Below, in pieces: positions 2,929 to 56,947 of a DNA stretch of 62,955 nucleotides. Location of the stretch: positions 1-62,955 of the forward strand of contig JAFROT010000024.1 in the NCBI GenBank assembly GCA_017429525.1, read 5' to 3'. The stretch is from Bacteroidaceae bacterium (GTDB taxonomy: Bacteria > Bacteroidota > Bacteroidia > Bacteroidales > Bacteroidaceae). The notes under the pieces are model-generated. The model was given only the letters and a program-made list of their open reading frames with translations, ran no database searches and was not told the origin of the DNA. How positions within the stretch are numbered: position 1 is the stretch's first letter; the number at the start of each line of letters is the position of its first letter. A program made the translations under genes and the position numbers.

Positions 2929-4638
2929 CTACCGATTTGCCAAACGGGCTTCAATAACATTGATTACATAGTCGCCCACTTTCTCGCACTCGTTGACGAT
3001 ATCCATATAGACGGTTCCGAGGGCATAGGTGTACTTGTGGGCATCGACATCAAGAATATTCTGCGTCTTCACGCGGTCGCGGAAAGCATTGATCTCGCTC
3101 TCCAGATTGACGGATTTGTGGCGACTGACCTGCTCGCGGGGTCCACGCAACACGACGTTCATCTGGATCAAGCTGTCGTTCACGAGACGCAACATCCAAT
3201 GCAGGTTTTCCAACTGCTGTTCGCTGAAGGACTCACCGCCCATCTTCTGGCGATTGATATGGCGGGCTAGATTGTAGCAGCCATCGCCAATACTCTCGAG
3301 CTCACTCACTTGTCGCATCATCGAGCGGATGATAGCTTTCGTATCATCGCTCAGATGAGCATCACTGACCTCCTCCAAGTAATGGGCGATCTCGAGTTCC
3401 AGGTCGTCGCAGATGCTCTCATATTTCTCGATACGGGAATAGAGCTTGACTGACGCCGAATCATCTGCCTCATCCAGGAGTTGGACCACCATGCCGAACA
3501 TGCGCTGCGTGCGATCGCCGAAGGCAAGAATCTCGCGTTGCGCCTCGAGCACGGCAATTTCAGGTGTCTTCATGAGGCCAGCTTCAACATAACGCAAACG
3601 CGTGTGCTCTTCTTCTTCAGCATCTCCAGTGGTCGTTTTGCTCTTGATGACCCAGCAGACGATGCGCTCAATCTGCGGTATGAACCAAATGAGGATGAAC
3701 GTATTGGCGAGGTTAAAACAAGTGTGGAACGTAGCCAGGACGACACTGAGCTTGGCCGCATTAGCCAGGAACGCAGCTTCGCCAGCCTCACGAGTCATCG
3801 TGCTGTCGTATCCGACAAGCGAACAGACCCCATCGATAAAAGGATGGAAGACGACAAGCATCCAGGCGACGCCAAAGAGGTTGAAGAACATGTGGGCAAA
3901 GGCTGCTCGACGGGCTTGCGTGGAGGCCGTGAGAGCCGTGAGGTTGGAAGTGACGGTCGTGCCGATGTTCTCACCCATGACGAGCGCGATGCCCTGATAA
4001 ATCGGCAGGGCACCACTCGAGCACAGGATCATCGTAATGGCCATGACGGCAGCCGACGACTGCACACACATCGTGAGCACGCCACCAATGAGCAGGAACA
4101 GGATCGTGGTCGTGAAGCTTGACGGGTCAAAACGCGAGAAGAAAGCAAGCAACTGCTCGTTCTCGCCCAGATTCATGTCGATGCCCGTCTGACGGAGCGT
4201 GCCAAGGCCAAGGAACATAAACGAGACGCCGAATAGGAAATCGCCGACATCTGAATGCTTCTTCTTGTAAATCAAAAACATAGCCAAGACAAAGGTCGGC
4301 CAGACAAAATCCGTAATATTGAACGAGAAGCCTGCAGACATGATCCATGCCGTAAGTGTCGTACCAATGTTGGCACCCATGACGACAGAGATGGCCTGTG
4401 CCAACGTGAGGAGGCCTGCATTGACAAATGAGACCGTCATCACGGTGGTAGCGGTGGACGACTGAACGGCCGCTGTGACGAAGACGCCCGTGAGCATACC
4501 CGTGAAGCGATTTGTCGTCATGCGCCCAAGGACGTGACGCAATTGCGGGCCAGCCATCTTCTGGAGGGTATCGCTCATCATCTTCATGCCAAAGACGAGC
4601 AATGCGAGTGAGCCCAGAATACGGAAAAGGAAATACAT
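2929..4638 (-). CDS. Na/Pi cotransporter with C-terminal PhoU-like domain
   Basis: Inner-membrane sodium/phosphate symporter of the NptA/YjbB type, 569 aa. Two inverted membrane repeats each carry the family QSS motif (QSSTATTVMTVSF and QSSAAVMAITMILCSSG) with partner motifs GANIGTTLTAW and GENIGTTVTSNLTAL. The last ~200 residues are helical and charged, like the PhoU domains attached to this family. I start at 4638 (MYFLFRILGSLALLVFGMK) rather than the in-frame ATG at 4677, because homologues begin just before the first membrane helix. It is divergent from a PhoB-like regulator across a region containing seven 11-bp repeats, which points to phosphate-controlled expression (inference). Confidence 0.9.
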   Translation of the reverse strand: MYFLFRILGSLALLVFGMKMMSDTLQKMAGPQLRHVLGRMTTNRFTGMLTGVFVTAAVQSSTATTVMTVSFVNAGLLTLAQAISVVMGANIGTTLTAWIMSAGFSFNITDFVWPTFVLAMFLIYKKKHSDVGDFLFGVSFMFLGLGTLRQTGIDMNLGENEQLLAFFSRFDPSSFTTTILFLLIGGVLTMCVQSSAAVMAITMILCSSGALPIYQGIALVMGENIGTTVTSNLTALTASTQARRAAFAHMFFNLFGVAWMLVVFHPFIDGVCSLVGYDSTMTREAGEAAFLANAAKLSVVLATFHTCFNLANTFILIWFIPQIERIVCWVIKSKTTTGDAEEEEHTRLRYVEAGLMKTPEIAVLEAQREILAFGDRTQRMFGMVVQLLDEADDSASVKLYSRIEKYESICDDLELEIAHYLEEVSDAHLSDDTKAIIRSMMRQVSELESIGDGCYNLARHINRQKMGGESFSEQQLENLHWMLRLVNDSLIQMNVVLRGPREQVSRHKSVNLESEINAFRDRVKTQNILDVDAHKYTYALGTVYMDIVNECEKVGDYVINVIEARLANR

Positions 4639-4692: not shown

Positions 4693-4724
4693 CAAATGTA
4701 CTGCGAAATCACATACAAAGCAAA
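4693..4724 (-). promoter_or_regulatory. Promoter of the Na/Pi cotransporter
   Basis: On the minus strand TTTG (4724-4721), 20 nt, then TACATTTG (4700-4693): a perfect-spacing Bacteroidetes promoter. Its -33 element sits only 2 bp from the first unit of the 11-bp repeat array (4727-4803), the position expected for an activator that contacts polymerase. Confidence 0.8.
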
Positions 4725-4726
4725 TT

Positions 4727-4803
4727 TGTAACAGAATTGTAACAACTTTGTGACGATTTTGAGATGACTTTGTGGCAACTTTGTAACGACTATGTGACAA
4801 AAA
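4727..4803. promoter_or_regulatory. Seven tandem 11-bp repeats, Pho-box-like operator
   Basis: Seven consecutive 11-bp units without gaps: TGTAACAGAAT, TGTAACAACTT, TGTGACGATTT, TGAGATGACTT, TGTGGCAACTT, TGTAACGACTA, TGTGACAAAAA; consensus TGTRACRACTT. PhoB-family regulators bind 11-bp direct repeats (TGTCA-type half sites in E. coli). The array fills the space between a Na/Pi cotransporter and a PhoB-like response regulator, so I infer it is that regulator's operator, controlling both directions. Confidence 0.75.
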
Positions 4804-4808
4804 CTTTG

Positions 4809-4816
4809 TATCTTTG
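4809..4816 (+). promoter_or_regulatory. -7 element of the response regulator gene
   Basis: TATCTTTG lies 4 bp before the ATG at 4821. No TTTG sits at the normal 19-21 bp spacing (the nearest is 25 bp away), as is common for activator-dependent promoters; the 11-bp repeat array occupies the -33 region. The very short gap to the start codon suggests a leaderless or near-leaderless transcript. Confidence 0.6.
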
Positions 4817-4820
4817 CGCC

Positions 4821-5519
4821 ATGAAAACTGAGAACGACAAGAAAAATATCCGAATACTGGTCGTGGACGATGAGCCCGACTTGTGCGAGATCATCAAATT
4901 CAACCTCGAAATGGAGGGATACGAGTTACAGACTGCCTCAAGCGGCGAAGAAGCGCTTGCCCTCTTGGAGGAAGGGAACACCTACTCCCTGCTCCTGCTC
5001 GATGTGATGATGCCAGGCGAATCGGGATTTGCCATTGCCCGCCAGTTGAAACTGGACGAGAAGACGCGGGAGTTGCCCATCATCTTCCTGACGGCCCGCA
5101 GCACCGAAAACGACGTCATCACAGGCCTGAATCTTGGCGCAGACGACTACATCGCCAAGCCTTTTCGCCTACGCGAGCTGCTGGCTCGAGTGAATGCCGT
5201 ATTAAGGCGAACAGAGCCAACTGCAGGTGACGACAGAATGAGCATCGAGGGATTGGTCGTCGACAATACGCGAAAAATCATACTCATTGACAACGAGGAA
5301 GTTGCGCTGACTCGCACCGAATTCGTCCTATTGAGCCTTCTCTTATCCGAACGCGGACGTGTGCTTTCGCGCCAAGAACTCATCCAGCGTGCCTGGCCCC
5401 AGGATGTCGTTGTCACGGAACGAAGCGTGGATGTATGCATCACACGCCTACGTAAGAAAATAGGGCGTTATGCCTCGCACATCACCACCAAAGCCGGCTT
5501 TGGCTATAGTTTTGAATGA
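4821..5519 (+). CDS. phoB: PhoB-like (OmpR family) response regulator
   Basis: DNA-binding response regulator of 232 aa. Residues 10-125 are the receiver: acidic pair in LVVDDEPD, phospho-acceptor Asp61 in LLLLDVMMPGESG, conserved Lys in ADDYIAKPFR. Residues ~135-232 form an OmpR/PhoB winged helix (TRTEFVLLSLLL, GRVLSRQELI, RSVDVCITRLRKKIG). The ATG at 4821 is chosen because it follows the promoter; an earlier in-frame ATG at 4764 lies inside the repeat array. The stop overlaps the start of the kinase gene. The phoB name is inferred from the divergent phosphate transporter and the 11-bp repeats; another OmpR-type regulator such as RprY remains possible. Confidence 0.9.
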   Translation: MKTENDKKNIRILVVDDEPDLCEIIKFNLEMEGYELQTASSGEEALALLEEGNTYSLLLLDVMMPGESGFAIARQLKLDEKTRELPIIFLTARSTENDVITGLNLGADDYIAKPFRLRELLARVNAVLRRTEPTAGDDRMSIEGLVVDNTRKIILIDNEEVALTRTEFVLLSLLLSERGRVLSRQELIQRAWPQDVVVTERSVDVCITRLRKKIGRYASHITTKAGFGYSFE

Positions 5520-6433
5520 TGAAGAAACTGACAGAAGGACGCAAAATGTTTGTTACGGTGATGGCCATCTTCTTGGCTTATGCCATCACCTTCATTGTCT
5601 TTGACGATTATGATCGCCATCGCTTTGAATTCCTCGACGAACCCAACGACTGGCATCTGCTTATGTTCTCTGTCGTGGTGATGGTTATACTGGCTCTCGT
5701 GCTCCATCGTTATTCTATAAATATGGACGCGCGCATTAGTCGTGACCAAGCCGAGGAACAGGCATCCATGCGTCGACGGCTGACACAGAATATCGCTCAC
5801 GAGTTGAAAACCCCTGTGGCAAGCATACAAGGCTATTTGGAGACGCTCATCAACCATGCCAACATAGAAGCCGACAAACGTGAGCAGTTCCTCCAGCACT
5901 GCCTGGCACAGAGCCAACGCCTCGCCTCACTATTGCAAGACCTCACCACCCTCCAACGCTTGGACGACGCACCCGATATGCAGGCTTTTGAGCAGATTGA
6001 CGTCGCTACCATCGTAGCTGGCGTCATCAAGGAGACTGCGCTCCAAATGTCAGAGCGTCGAATGACCTTTATCAACCGCCTACCAGCCAGCATGCCGATG
6101 CAAGGCAACCCCACACTCGCCTATGGTATCTTCCGTAACCTCACCGACAACGCCATTACCTATGCAGGCGAAGGAGCAGTCATCACGCTCACGGTTTCGG
6201 AAAGCATCAACCAATGGCACTTCTGCTTCCGCGACAACGGACCTGGCGTGCCACCAGAACACATCAACCGCCTCTTTGAGCGTTTCTATCGCGTAGACAA
6301 AGGTCGCAGTCGCAAACTCGGCGGAACAGGCTTAGGACTGGCTATTGTGAAGAATGCCGTCATTCTCCACGGCGGCAACATCGCCGTGTCCAACGACCGA
6401 GGTCTGCGTTTCGACTTCACGCTGAAGAAATAG
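5516..6433 (+). CDS. phoR: PhoR-like sensor histidine kinase
   Basis: Membrane histidine kinase of 305 aa. Two membrane helices (about residues 11-28 and 47-65) flank a short ~18-residue periplasmic loop, too small for a classical sensor domain. The DHp H-box is QNIAHELKTPVASIQGY with His95. The ATPase part has an N-box near NLTDNAITYA, G1 DNGPGVP and G2 GGTGLGLAIVKNAV. The gene overlaps the response regulator by 4 bp (ATGA type), so the two are translated as a pair. The small sensory part suggests that it detects another membrane protein, as E. coli PhoR does through the Pst/PhoU complex; that parallel is inference. Confidence 0.9.
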   Translation: MMKKLTEGRKMFVTVMAIFLAYAITFIVFDDYDRHRFEFLDEPNDWHLLMFSVVVMVILALVLHRYSINMDARISRDQAEEQASMRRRLTQNIAHELKTPVASIQGYLETLINHANIEADKREQFLQHCLAQSQRLASLLQDLTTLQRLDDAPDMQAFEQIDVATIVAGVIKETALQMSERRMTFINRLPASMPMQGNPTLAYGIFRNLTDNAITYAGEGAVITLTVSESINQWHFCFRDNGPGVPPEHINRLFERFYRVDKGRSRKLGGTGLGLAIVKNAVILHGGNIAVSNDRGLRFDFTLKK

Positions 6434-23694: not shown

Positions 23695-23800
23695 TTCCTA
23701 TCACAAAAGAGCCCCAAATATGTCCTTTTTTATACAAAGTTGGGTGAAGGATGATGCAAAAGGACATCAAACTACGCATATATAGGCACAGCTTCACACG

Positions 23801-23874
23801 TATGGACGTGAAGCCTCACACATACGGACGTGAAGCCCTACACATACGGACGTGAAGCCTCACACATACGGACG
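23801..23874. repeat. 22-bp tandem repeat array, copy 1
   Basis: Three full 22-bp units starting at 23801, 23823 and 23845 (TAYGGACGTGAAGCC plus CTACACA/TCACACA) and a truncated fourth ending TACGGACG. No spacers, so not CRISPR. The core CGGACGTGAAG resembles the 22-bp array at 56841-56947. Confidence 0.85.
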
Positions 23875-55941: not shown

Positions 55942-56573
55942 GGATTACTCTGATTATTCTGATTACTCTGATTATTCTGATTACTCTGATTACTCTGATT
56001 ACTCTGATTACTCCGATAATTCACTCGAGCCTGGTACATCCTTTCCTTGATGCCACCCTCTGTGACGAATCGGTTCTGCATGGTGAGCAGCAGCTTGTGG
56101 AGCATATAAATCGCCTGGTGAATCAGCGTGATGCAGAGGTTGGCAATCTCCTCATCGTTCATCTTTTGGATAATCGAGGCGTAGTCCTTCCTAATCTGTT
56201 CACCCCGCGCATACTCGCGCATTCTCTCGTAACGCGGATGCAGGTTGCCCCATTGGGCCAACTGACGCACCCGCAGATAATCCTCGTAATCGTCGAGCAA
56301 CTCCTCCAGACTGGCTTACGCCACATTGGTGAGTTTGATTTCGGTCTCACTCGACGTGGCAGCTGCCTGGTTACCCTCAGCGATGTTTTGCTTGCCCGAG
56401 CGTGCCGCTTGCACCATTTGGTCAATCGTGCGGTCGACTTTCTGCAGATAGTGCTGCGTGAAGTAGAAGGTGATGTCATAGATCATCTCCGTGACCTGAT
56501 ACACCCTCAGTTGGCGGTAGTGTCCATGCTGGGGAAGGAAGGTCTTGGGAGGCTCCTGATGATTGGGTGTCAT
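55938..56573 (-). pseudogene. Four-helix-bundle suffix protein split by an in-frame stop
   Basis: One reading frame of 211 codons interrupted by TAA at 56318-56316. Before it: YRQLRVYQVTEMIYDITFYF, DRTIDQMVQAARSGKQNIAE, TEIKLTNVA. After it, in the same frame: ASLEELLDDYEDYLRVRQLA, then a C-terminal SNQ tail. Together they match the family of 23S-intervening-sequence/Avd-like four-helix proteins, in which NVA-x-ASLEELL is normally continuous. A single base change (for example AAA or CAA to TAA) would explain it. Sequencing error or natural recoding cannot be excluded. The stop overlaps the S24 start (ATGA), so the break could alter S24 translation. Confidence 0.8.
55941..56012. repeat. 9-bp repeat array encoding the SNQ tail
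   Basis: Eight units of 9 bp; minus strand AGTAATCAG (Ser-Asn-Gln) with two AATAATCAG variants and a final AGTAATCCA before the stop. Confidence 0.9.
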
Positions 56574-56690: not shown

Positions 56691-56840
56691 GCAAAAAGCT
56701 CGCAATAGCGAGCAGAAATGTACAATTTTTTGCAAACAACCTCATCGCCTCCTTGAGGGGGAAATAATTAACGCCAGCTGGCAGCGCTCTTTATATCGAT
56801 GATGTACGCGCGTGCGAGGGGAGGCTGGGCCTTTCACGTG

Positions 56841-56947
56841 CGGACGCGAAGGGCTGAAGGAGCGGTCGTGAGGGGCTGAAGGAGCGGTCGTGAAGGGCTG
56901 AAGGAGCGGTCGTGAAGGGCTGAAGGAGCGGTCGTGAAGGGCTGAAG
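56841..56947. repeat. 22-bp tandem repeat array, copy 2
   Basis: Five 22-bp units starting at 56841, 56863, 56885, 56907 and 56929 (last one 19 bp), consensus CGGTCGTGAAGGGCTGAAGG plus AG. No spacers. The core CGG-T/A-CGTGAAG and the period match the array at 23801-23874. Confidence 0.9.

Follow-up and report, generated by a model that had tools for sequence, protein, structure and literature searches.

A tandem array of seven 11-bp units lies upstream of phoB in the genome of this Bacteroidaceae bacterium, between phoB and a divergently transcribed phosphate cotransporter gene. We propose that it is a Pho-box array serving as the operator of phoB-phoR: PhoB would bind the array and activate its own operon, the cotransporter would be transcribed from a promoter of its own, and the phosphate signal would come from the PhoU domain of an NptA-type cotransporter. 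Judging from sequence comparisons, we put the probability of this reading at roughly 0.85. In the window (the whole stretch of DNA analysed, 62,955 nucleotides), the features concerned are:

2929-4638, minus strand: NptA-type Na/Pi cotransporter gene with a C-terminal PhoU domain (PF02690 in two stretches, PF01895; start taken as the ATG at 4638)
4700-4693, minus strand: cotransporter -7 box, TACATTTG, by direct reading
4724-4721, minus strand: cotransporter -33 box, TTTG, with a 20-bp spacer to the -7 box
4727-4803, plus strand: array of seven 11-bp Pho-box units, reading towards phoB
4760-4781, plus strand: units 4 and 5 of the array, degenerate
4809-4816, plus strand: phoB -7 box, TATCTTTG
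4821-5519, plus strand: phoB, an OmpR/PhoB-type response regulator gene (NF053854, 304.8 bits, passing the curated cut-off of 270)
5516-6433, plus strand: short phoR, with two hydrophobic stretches (approximately residues 9-31 and 43-70), HisKA and HATPase domains

A seven-unit array between two promoters

The array was recognised by direct reading, by comparison with shuffled sequences, with a matrix of units from relatives, and in a hold-out scan. Its units start at 4727, 4738, 4749, 4760, 4771, 4782 and 4793 without gaps between them, inside a span (4693-4816) that runs from the cotransporter -7 box through the phoB -7 box. Shifted by 11, the 77-bp array is identical to itself at 45 of 66 positions. 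The top 66-position stretch at any lag from 6 to 20 in the intergenic region scores 46, whereas 5000 dinucleotide shuffles of that region averaged 27.8 and did not exceed 38; none of the shuffles was as periodic as the array, and the seven gapless units described in an earlier note on this DNA are thereby borne out. When the whole window is ranked at lag 11, the array comes first (46) and the runner-up scores 34. Tandem Repeats Finder also calls it, as 4737-4800, and in the 3.3-Mb genome its locus is the sole match to a pattern of three TGTNAC words in phase, with one mismatch allowed. Other tandem arrays in the window lie at 56840-56947 (22-bp unit, 4.9 copies), 55943-56017 (9-bp, 8.3 copies) and 23790-23874 (22-bp, 3.9 copies).

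The seven units are of unequal quality. Compared by eye with TGTRACRACTT, units 1 to 7 have 3, 0, 1, 2, 1, 1 and 3 mismatches, so that one is perfect. The array has the two or more 11-nt direct repeat units with a conserved core that characterise a Pho box, with weak units 4 and 5, whose core scores are -4.4 and -1.0 bits against a mean of 10.1 in relatives. Four of the seven units have G at position 4, as against 1 of 86 units in relatives. The array had been called unusually long, which holds for its number of units (seven, compared with 2-5 in the arrays of relatives) but not for its strength: because units 4 and 5 are degenerate, its summed core score is about that of four good units.

Promoter boxes in the window were labelled by what we take to be the -33/-7 consensus. 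On the cotransporter side the promoter is complete, with its TTTG 2 bp from the array, and on the other side stands the -7 box of the response regulator gene, both as the earlier note had them. The TTTG of the phoB -7 box is 20 nt downstream of the start of the last array unit, and a search for a -33 TTTG at spacers of 17-21 on this side found none. With 4 nt between this -7 box and the phoB ATG (4821), and an equally short distance in the relative G062 (locus L114), the phoB transcript may be leaderless in both.

The genes beside the array

The matches to NF053854, PF02690 and PF01895 support the gene identities first suggested from the sequence, a phosphate transporter on one side and a PhoB/PhoR-like pair on the other. 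The cotransporter scores 191.8 bits for PF02690 and 37.2 bits for PF01895 and is predicted to be an NptA with a PhoU domain. The kinase is a short protein: it scores 338.8 bits with the Bacteroides PhoR model NF053855, below the cut-off of 500, and the match is not full-length but confined to positions 353-583 of 583, the sensor part being missing. From its position and domains we expect that it works like PhoR.

A search of the genome, 86% complete, gave no PstS (TIGR02136), and the only PstB match there has an E-value of 1.7e-44, compared with 1e-90 or better in genomes where PstB is clear. Loss of Pst as the cause of the short PhoR was considered but is a weak explanation that we do not put forward, since three genomes (G024, G025 and G027) combine a short PhoR with a strong PstB match. 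We also noticed open frames of 916-1118 amino acids that match most of the PstB model at 1e-75 to 1e-69 and are possibly large fused phosphate ABC transporters (G047:C75, G025:C45, G040:C15, G044:C1, G057:C6, G012:C18, G002:C16, G066:C68 and G042:C110).

Short PhoR genes are linked to NptA genes elsewhere too. We counted 13 short-PhoR loci including the window, defined by a full-length match from residue 1-4, and excluded L042 (32% identical, 353 amino acids). At 10 of the 13, an NptA gene precedes phoB-phoR in the same direction, with gaps of a few to about 540 nt; of the remaining three, the window has its NptA gene divergent, L114 has none in its 11.7 kb of available sequence, and L123 begins near a contig end. 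At seven long-PhoR loci an NptA gene on the opposite strand lies downstream of PhoR; it is next to PhoR in L037, L044, L127, L132, L134 and L135, and 2.2 kb from it in L043.

Phase and promoter register recur in relatives

We compared 157 upstream sequences (some overlapping) of phoB, phoB-like and NptA-PhoU genes, the window being excluded. Sense-strand pairs of the loose word YGTNAY number 58 at lag 11, 28 at lag 22 and 14 at lag 33, with 8 or fewer at any other lag from 6 to 39. The near-palindromic form of the loose word makes antisense pairs appear at the same lags (25, 20 and 13); with the stricter word YGTAAY there are 49 sense pairs at lag 11 and 8 antisense. The units also keep a register to the promoter, taken here as how far a pair's last unit lies from the TTTG in a TAnnTTTG box. 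This distance is 9, 20, 31, 42 or 43 in 53 of 56 combinations, and an in-register pair is present in 35 of the 157 sequences but was never seen in 100 rounds of dinucleotide shuffles.

There are two types of promoter. Promoters of the distal type have two units, placed 42 or 43 nt from the TTTG, and 17 of 26 have a -33 box that matches TTTG in three letters or more. Those of the proximal type have, in relatives, three to five units reaching to 20 or 9 nt, and none of nine proximal promoters (the window counted) has such a -33 box, as against 47 of 74 promoters without Pho boxes. The window phoB promoter is of the proximal type: its seventh unit starts 20 nt before the TTTG, a register in use at the Pho promoters of relatives, and 28 nt before the ATG.

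The closest phoB that we found, in G062 (62% identity), has a four-unit array with the same register of 20 and the same 28 nt from the last unit to the ATG, so the array is conserved at this orthologous locus, within a set in which 8 of 57 phoB or phoB-like genes of relatives have one upstream. The second-closest phoB (L034, 60%) has an upstream region without an array. Autoregulation, which the earlier note had also proposed, draws its support from this shared geometry. The Bacteroidales Pho box itself stands on firmer ground: PhoB is identified by NF053854, and the 11-bp phase recurs in related genomes before phosphate transporter genes and some phoB genes. A box would be expected before the cotransporter in ten operons; eight have it, one (L118) does not, and one (L121) is cut off. 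Among 22 examined genomes with phoB, ten have no in-register box at the NptA genes inspected.

Several loci showed other features. By eye, a variant of the repeat, TGAAAC, recurs every 11 bp ahead of the -7 box in L124 and L126; together with L129 and L131 these loci are upstream of cotransporters of 38% identity, and TGAAAC suggests a second dialect of the box at another NptA type. At L119 there are, again by eye, repeated GC-rich units resembling inverted repeats just upstream of the cotransporter's two-unit Pho box. L101, filed as Fibrobacter succinogenes, has a PhoB-like regulator (36%) between two NptA-type genes (55% and 52%), and would lie outside Bacteroidota if the filing is right.

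A hold-out scan of the genome

We scanned the array's own genome with a sequence-only promoter model made from 24 distal promoters, all of them from other genomes. The word used to select these training promoters came from the consensus of the window, so the hold-out applied to the sequence but not to the idea. An NptA-PhoU gene on contig C2 has the best match in its upstream region (31.1 bits, E = 7e-7). The array ranks next, at 20.5 bits and a modest E-value (0.0017), with ranks 3 and 4 close behind (19.2 and 18.3 bits, on C16 and C28); inspection of these last two by eye revealed no two-unit box, and we took them as promoter-only matches. An earlier model that included the C2 promoter in its training set had the same two leaders. 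The C2 gene, the second NptA-PhoU gene of the genome (G000:C2), carries a two-unit box. As far as it can be read from sequence, then, the Pho regulon of this genome would consist of phoB-phoR and one transporter.

The array points towards phoB

According to the earlier note, the array activates both divergent units cooperatively, that is, one PhoB oligomer would serve phoB-phoR and the cotransporter gene alike. We scored its polarity with a matrix built from 86 units of relatives, the window excluded, and obtained 40.0 bits towards phoB and 18.8 bits towards the cotransporter. Seven proximal arrays of relatives, of which four units were scored (these being in the matrix), gave 33.3-45.1 bits forward and 2.6-15.6 bits reversed. 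Per unit, the reversed window array has 2.7 bits, which is inside the 0.6-3.9 of the relatives' reversed proximal arrays, and the T at position 4 that reversal produces (TGTTAC) is found in none of the 86 units. The register on the minus strand is 37, where relatives use 9, 20, 31, 42 or 43, so the cotransporter promoter has no units in both register and orientation, and it has a complete -33/-7 pair of its own. Because of the polarity and the minus-strand register, we read the array as the operator of phoB-phoR and do not accept joint activation. Joint activation is unlikely, even though the array is only 2 bp from the cotransporter -33 box and several minus-strand units also match YGTNAY in 11-bp steps.

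The ancestry of the cotransporter speaks for joint activation as well. We had considered that this gene belongs to an unboxed, Pho-independent clade, having 69-70% identity to such genes, but the tree places it at the base of a Pho-linked one. It is the deepest branch of a clade of 26 rows (SH-aLRT 99) in which 14 are boxed, 9 fused and 3 unboxed including the window, leaving 14 boxed, 9 fused and 2 unboxed among the other 25. Its membership of this clade weakens the case that the cotransporter is independent of PhoB.

Somewhat less probable still is that the operator activates phoB-phoR and, by crowding the -33 region of the divergent cotransporter, represses or insulates that gene. A consensus cotransporter promoter directly abutting the array would suit this, as would the presence in the genome of a second NptA gene with a two-unit box; a divergent arrangement of this kind with seven units was absent from the loci that we fetched, so comparison lends it nothing.

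Fusions of NptA to a PhoB DNA-binding domain

In six genomes that have a boxed NptA gene but no phoB, the NptA-PhoU frame does not end with PhoU but directly goes on to encode a winged-helix domain. We analysed nine fusions of this kind at full length:

L230-L235 and L248-L250: NptA-PhoU fusions with an added DNA-binding domain, in G013, G016, G017, G007, G015, G064, G045, G069 and G020

The added domain is 48-60% identical to that of the window PhoB and comes without a receiver domain. All nine exceed the Pfam cut-offs for Na_Pi_cotrans, PhoU and Trans_reg_C (PF00486), the last being the winged helix of PhoB-type effectors. Using the end of PhoU plus the DNA-binding domain as a probe, and requiring a near end-to-end match without internal stop (frames of 645-710 amino acids), we found fusions in 17 of 139 genomes of the genus, eight of which are judged from the probe match and the length of the frame. 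Another family contributed one further genome (663 amino acids) among 393 sampled from the order.

Fusions go with the absence of a separate PhoB and PhoR, in carriers that are draft genomes of 61-95% completeness. At an E-value threshold of 1e-60, no phoB was found in the nine fusion genomes, and among the 17 only G148 has a free PhoB-like domain. A PhoR search with E-values up to 1e-45 came back empty for 16 of the 17, all but G148, and recovered PhoR in all 10 phoB-bearing comparison genomes, which were chosen as positive controls.

The boxes follow the domain. Of the genomes with phoB, 12 of 22 have in-register boxes at NptA genes; of those with a fusion, 8 of 9 do, and of those having neither, 1 of 35. 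Over the 66 genomes of the genus in which an NptA promoter was examined this amounts to 20 of 31 versus 1 of 35 (Fisher P = 6e-8), where the 'neither' group includes G039, whose free PhoB-like domain failed the phoB threshold. The lone boxed genome in that group, G058, has a PhoR-like fragment near a contig end. Six of the nine fusions have an in-register box before their own gene and one more has a pair at 53 nt; in G045 and G069 the box is before another NptA gene.

This distribution bears on whose operator the array is. Direct repeats of about this length are, as a matter of general knowledge, commonly bound by OmpR-family proteins, and the array might belong to another such regulator that neighbours phosphate genes by chance. 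We find this improbable, since 20 of the 21 boxed genomes of the genus have a PhoB DNA-binding domain, free or fused, and the boxes are located at NptA and phoB genes. That the array is a functionless minisatellite is more improbable still, despite the other tandem repeats in the window: the shuffles and the comparative register rule against a chance or minisatellite origin, and in divergent relatives the spacers differ whereas unit core, phase and promoter register are preserved.

In the predicted structure of one fusion, the C-terminus forms a winged helix with ten-residue confidence means mostly of 72-89; the model as a whole has 71.9 and a pTM of 0.43, from which the arrangement of the domains is not readable. 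Its best PDB matches are 1gxq, 1qqi and 1gxp (TM 0.80-0.81 of target, 39-40% identity), structures of the effector domain of E. coli PhoB by itself or bound to pho box DNA; PhoU structures were matched as well. In a tree of the DNA-binding domain, built on few columns (89) and leaving out the cut-off L123, the nine fusions group with the window PhoB and the PhoBs of other short-PhoR loci (21 rows, SH-aLRT 88). The cotransporter tree, made by a quick method without bootstrap and without two duplicate cotransporters (L252), has fusions in three places. A single origin of the fusion was rejected, since this tree needs three changes, at least two of them forced by well-supported branches. The simplest inference is that NptA and phoB genes lying side by side were joined repeatedly, losing the receiver.

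Discussion

The mechanism that we favour for the window, with the array as operator of phoB-phoR, would run as follows. Phosphorylated PhoB would bind the 11-bp units head to tail, substitute for the missing -33 box and recruit RNA polymerase to the phoB -7 box; phosphate starvation would therefore raise phoB-phoR expression, a positive autoregulation. The same PhoB most likely also drives the second NptA-PhoU gene with its two-unit box. The divergent cotransporter is probably transcribed from its own -33/-7 promoter and would feel the neighbouring PhoB as a side effect at most. Because the window PhoR has no sensor domain, the phosphate signal would come from the PhoU domain of an NptA cotransporter.

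Parts of this scheme have precedents. The PHO box known from E. coli and other bacteria is defined by a pair of 11-nt units, to which PhoB binds head to tail (PMC4415409). The window array differs from the PHO box as given in the available text of that paper by its core (TGTAAC compared with CTGTCAT) and by its seven units, two of them degenerate, and the boxes here are set against Bacteroides-type -33/-7 promoters in quantised registers (20 or 42/43 nt to TTTG). In Bacteroides fragilis, PhoB binds the pstC promoter directly in a gel shift (PMC3547664). This organism is, by inference, of the same order, and the NCBI Bacteroides PhoB model covers the window gene; unlike the window genome, in which PstS was not found, B. 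fragilis has Pst, and no repeat unit or array is defined in the accessible part of that paper (PMC3547664). Riemerella anatipestifer PhoP, a PhoB-type regulator, resembles the window case in binding upstream of its own operon and in its core, TTTAACA, which is similar to TGTAACA; the available text likens the motif to that of ArcA and describes no tandem 11-bp array (PMC9603813).

Signalling from the PhoU domain of NptA to PhoR is suggested by the precedents of Staphylococcus aureus and E. coli. In S. aureus all three PhoU-like regulators, including the NptA domain, contribute to the control of PhoPR, so that a transporter with a C-terminal PhoU domain helps to control a PhoBR-type pair, as would happen in the window, although PitR contributes most and dominates there (PMC13170248). 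In that paper's text, no fusion of a transporter to a DNA-binding domain is discussed under the terms 'fused', 'fusion' or 'DNA-binding' (PMC13170248). The E. coli PhoR, for its part, has no canonical periplasmic sensor and is driven by a transporter and PhoU (PMC6978683).

For the fusions, the nearest comparison is with regulators of the ToxR/CadC type, in which a DNA-binding domain is carried on a membrane protein, CadC being controlled by the permease LysP (PMC6320335, PMC5936718). As far as those sources describe them, these are single-helix receptors, in CadC's case beside a permease, whereas each fusion belongs to a transporter family in its own right: it has a many-helix Na_Pi_cotrans part and PhoU, and its DNA-binding domain is at the C-terminus. 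In the open-licence literature, outside which most subscription papers lie, we found no description of a Bacteroidales 11-bp Pho array, of its registers or of an NptA-PhoU-DNA-binding-domain fusion.

For the genus as a whole, we give an even chance to the idea that a transporter gates the PhoB domain, either via a sensorless PhoR, as in the window, or within a single NptA fusion protein that binds Pho boxes. The one-protein form would apply to 17 of the 139 relatives, plus a single genome from a different family, and in 16 of the 17 the fusion would take the place of PhoB and PhoR. This protein would be a membrane-embedded phosphate sensor, transporter and transcription factor at once, binding the boxes before its own gene and its paralogues. 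Because a PhoB effector without its receiver binds DNA constitutively (PMC4415409), we predict that the transporter or PhoU part must restrain the fused domain.

With the unit (TGTAAC plus five), phase and register stated, the Pho regulons of these Bacteroidales become searchable, and the two promoter classes, in which the box either replaces the -33 box or stands just upstream of it, predict how PhoB would meet the polymerase. The natural fusions, accompanying the absence of PhoB and PhoR, make phosphate signalling from a transporter to the Pho switch directly testable with one protein and one DNA box.
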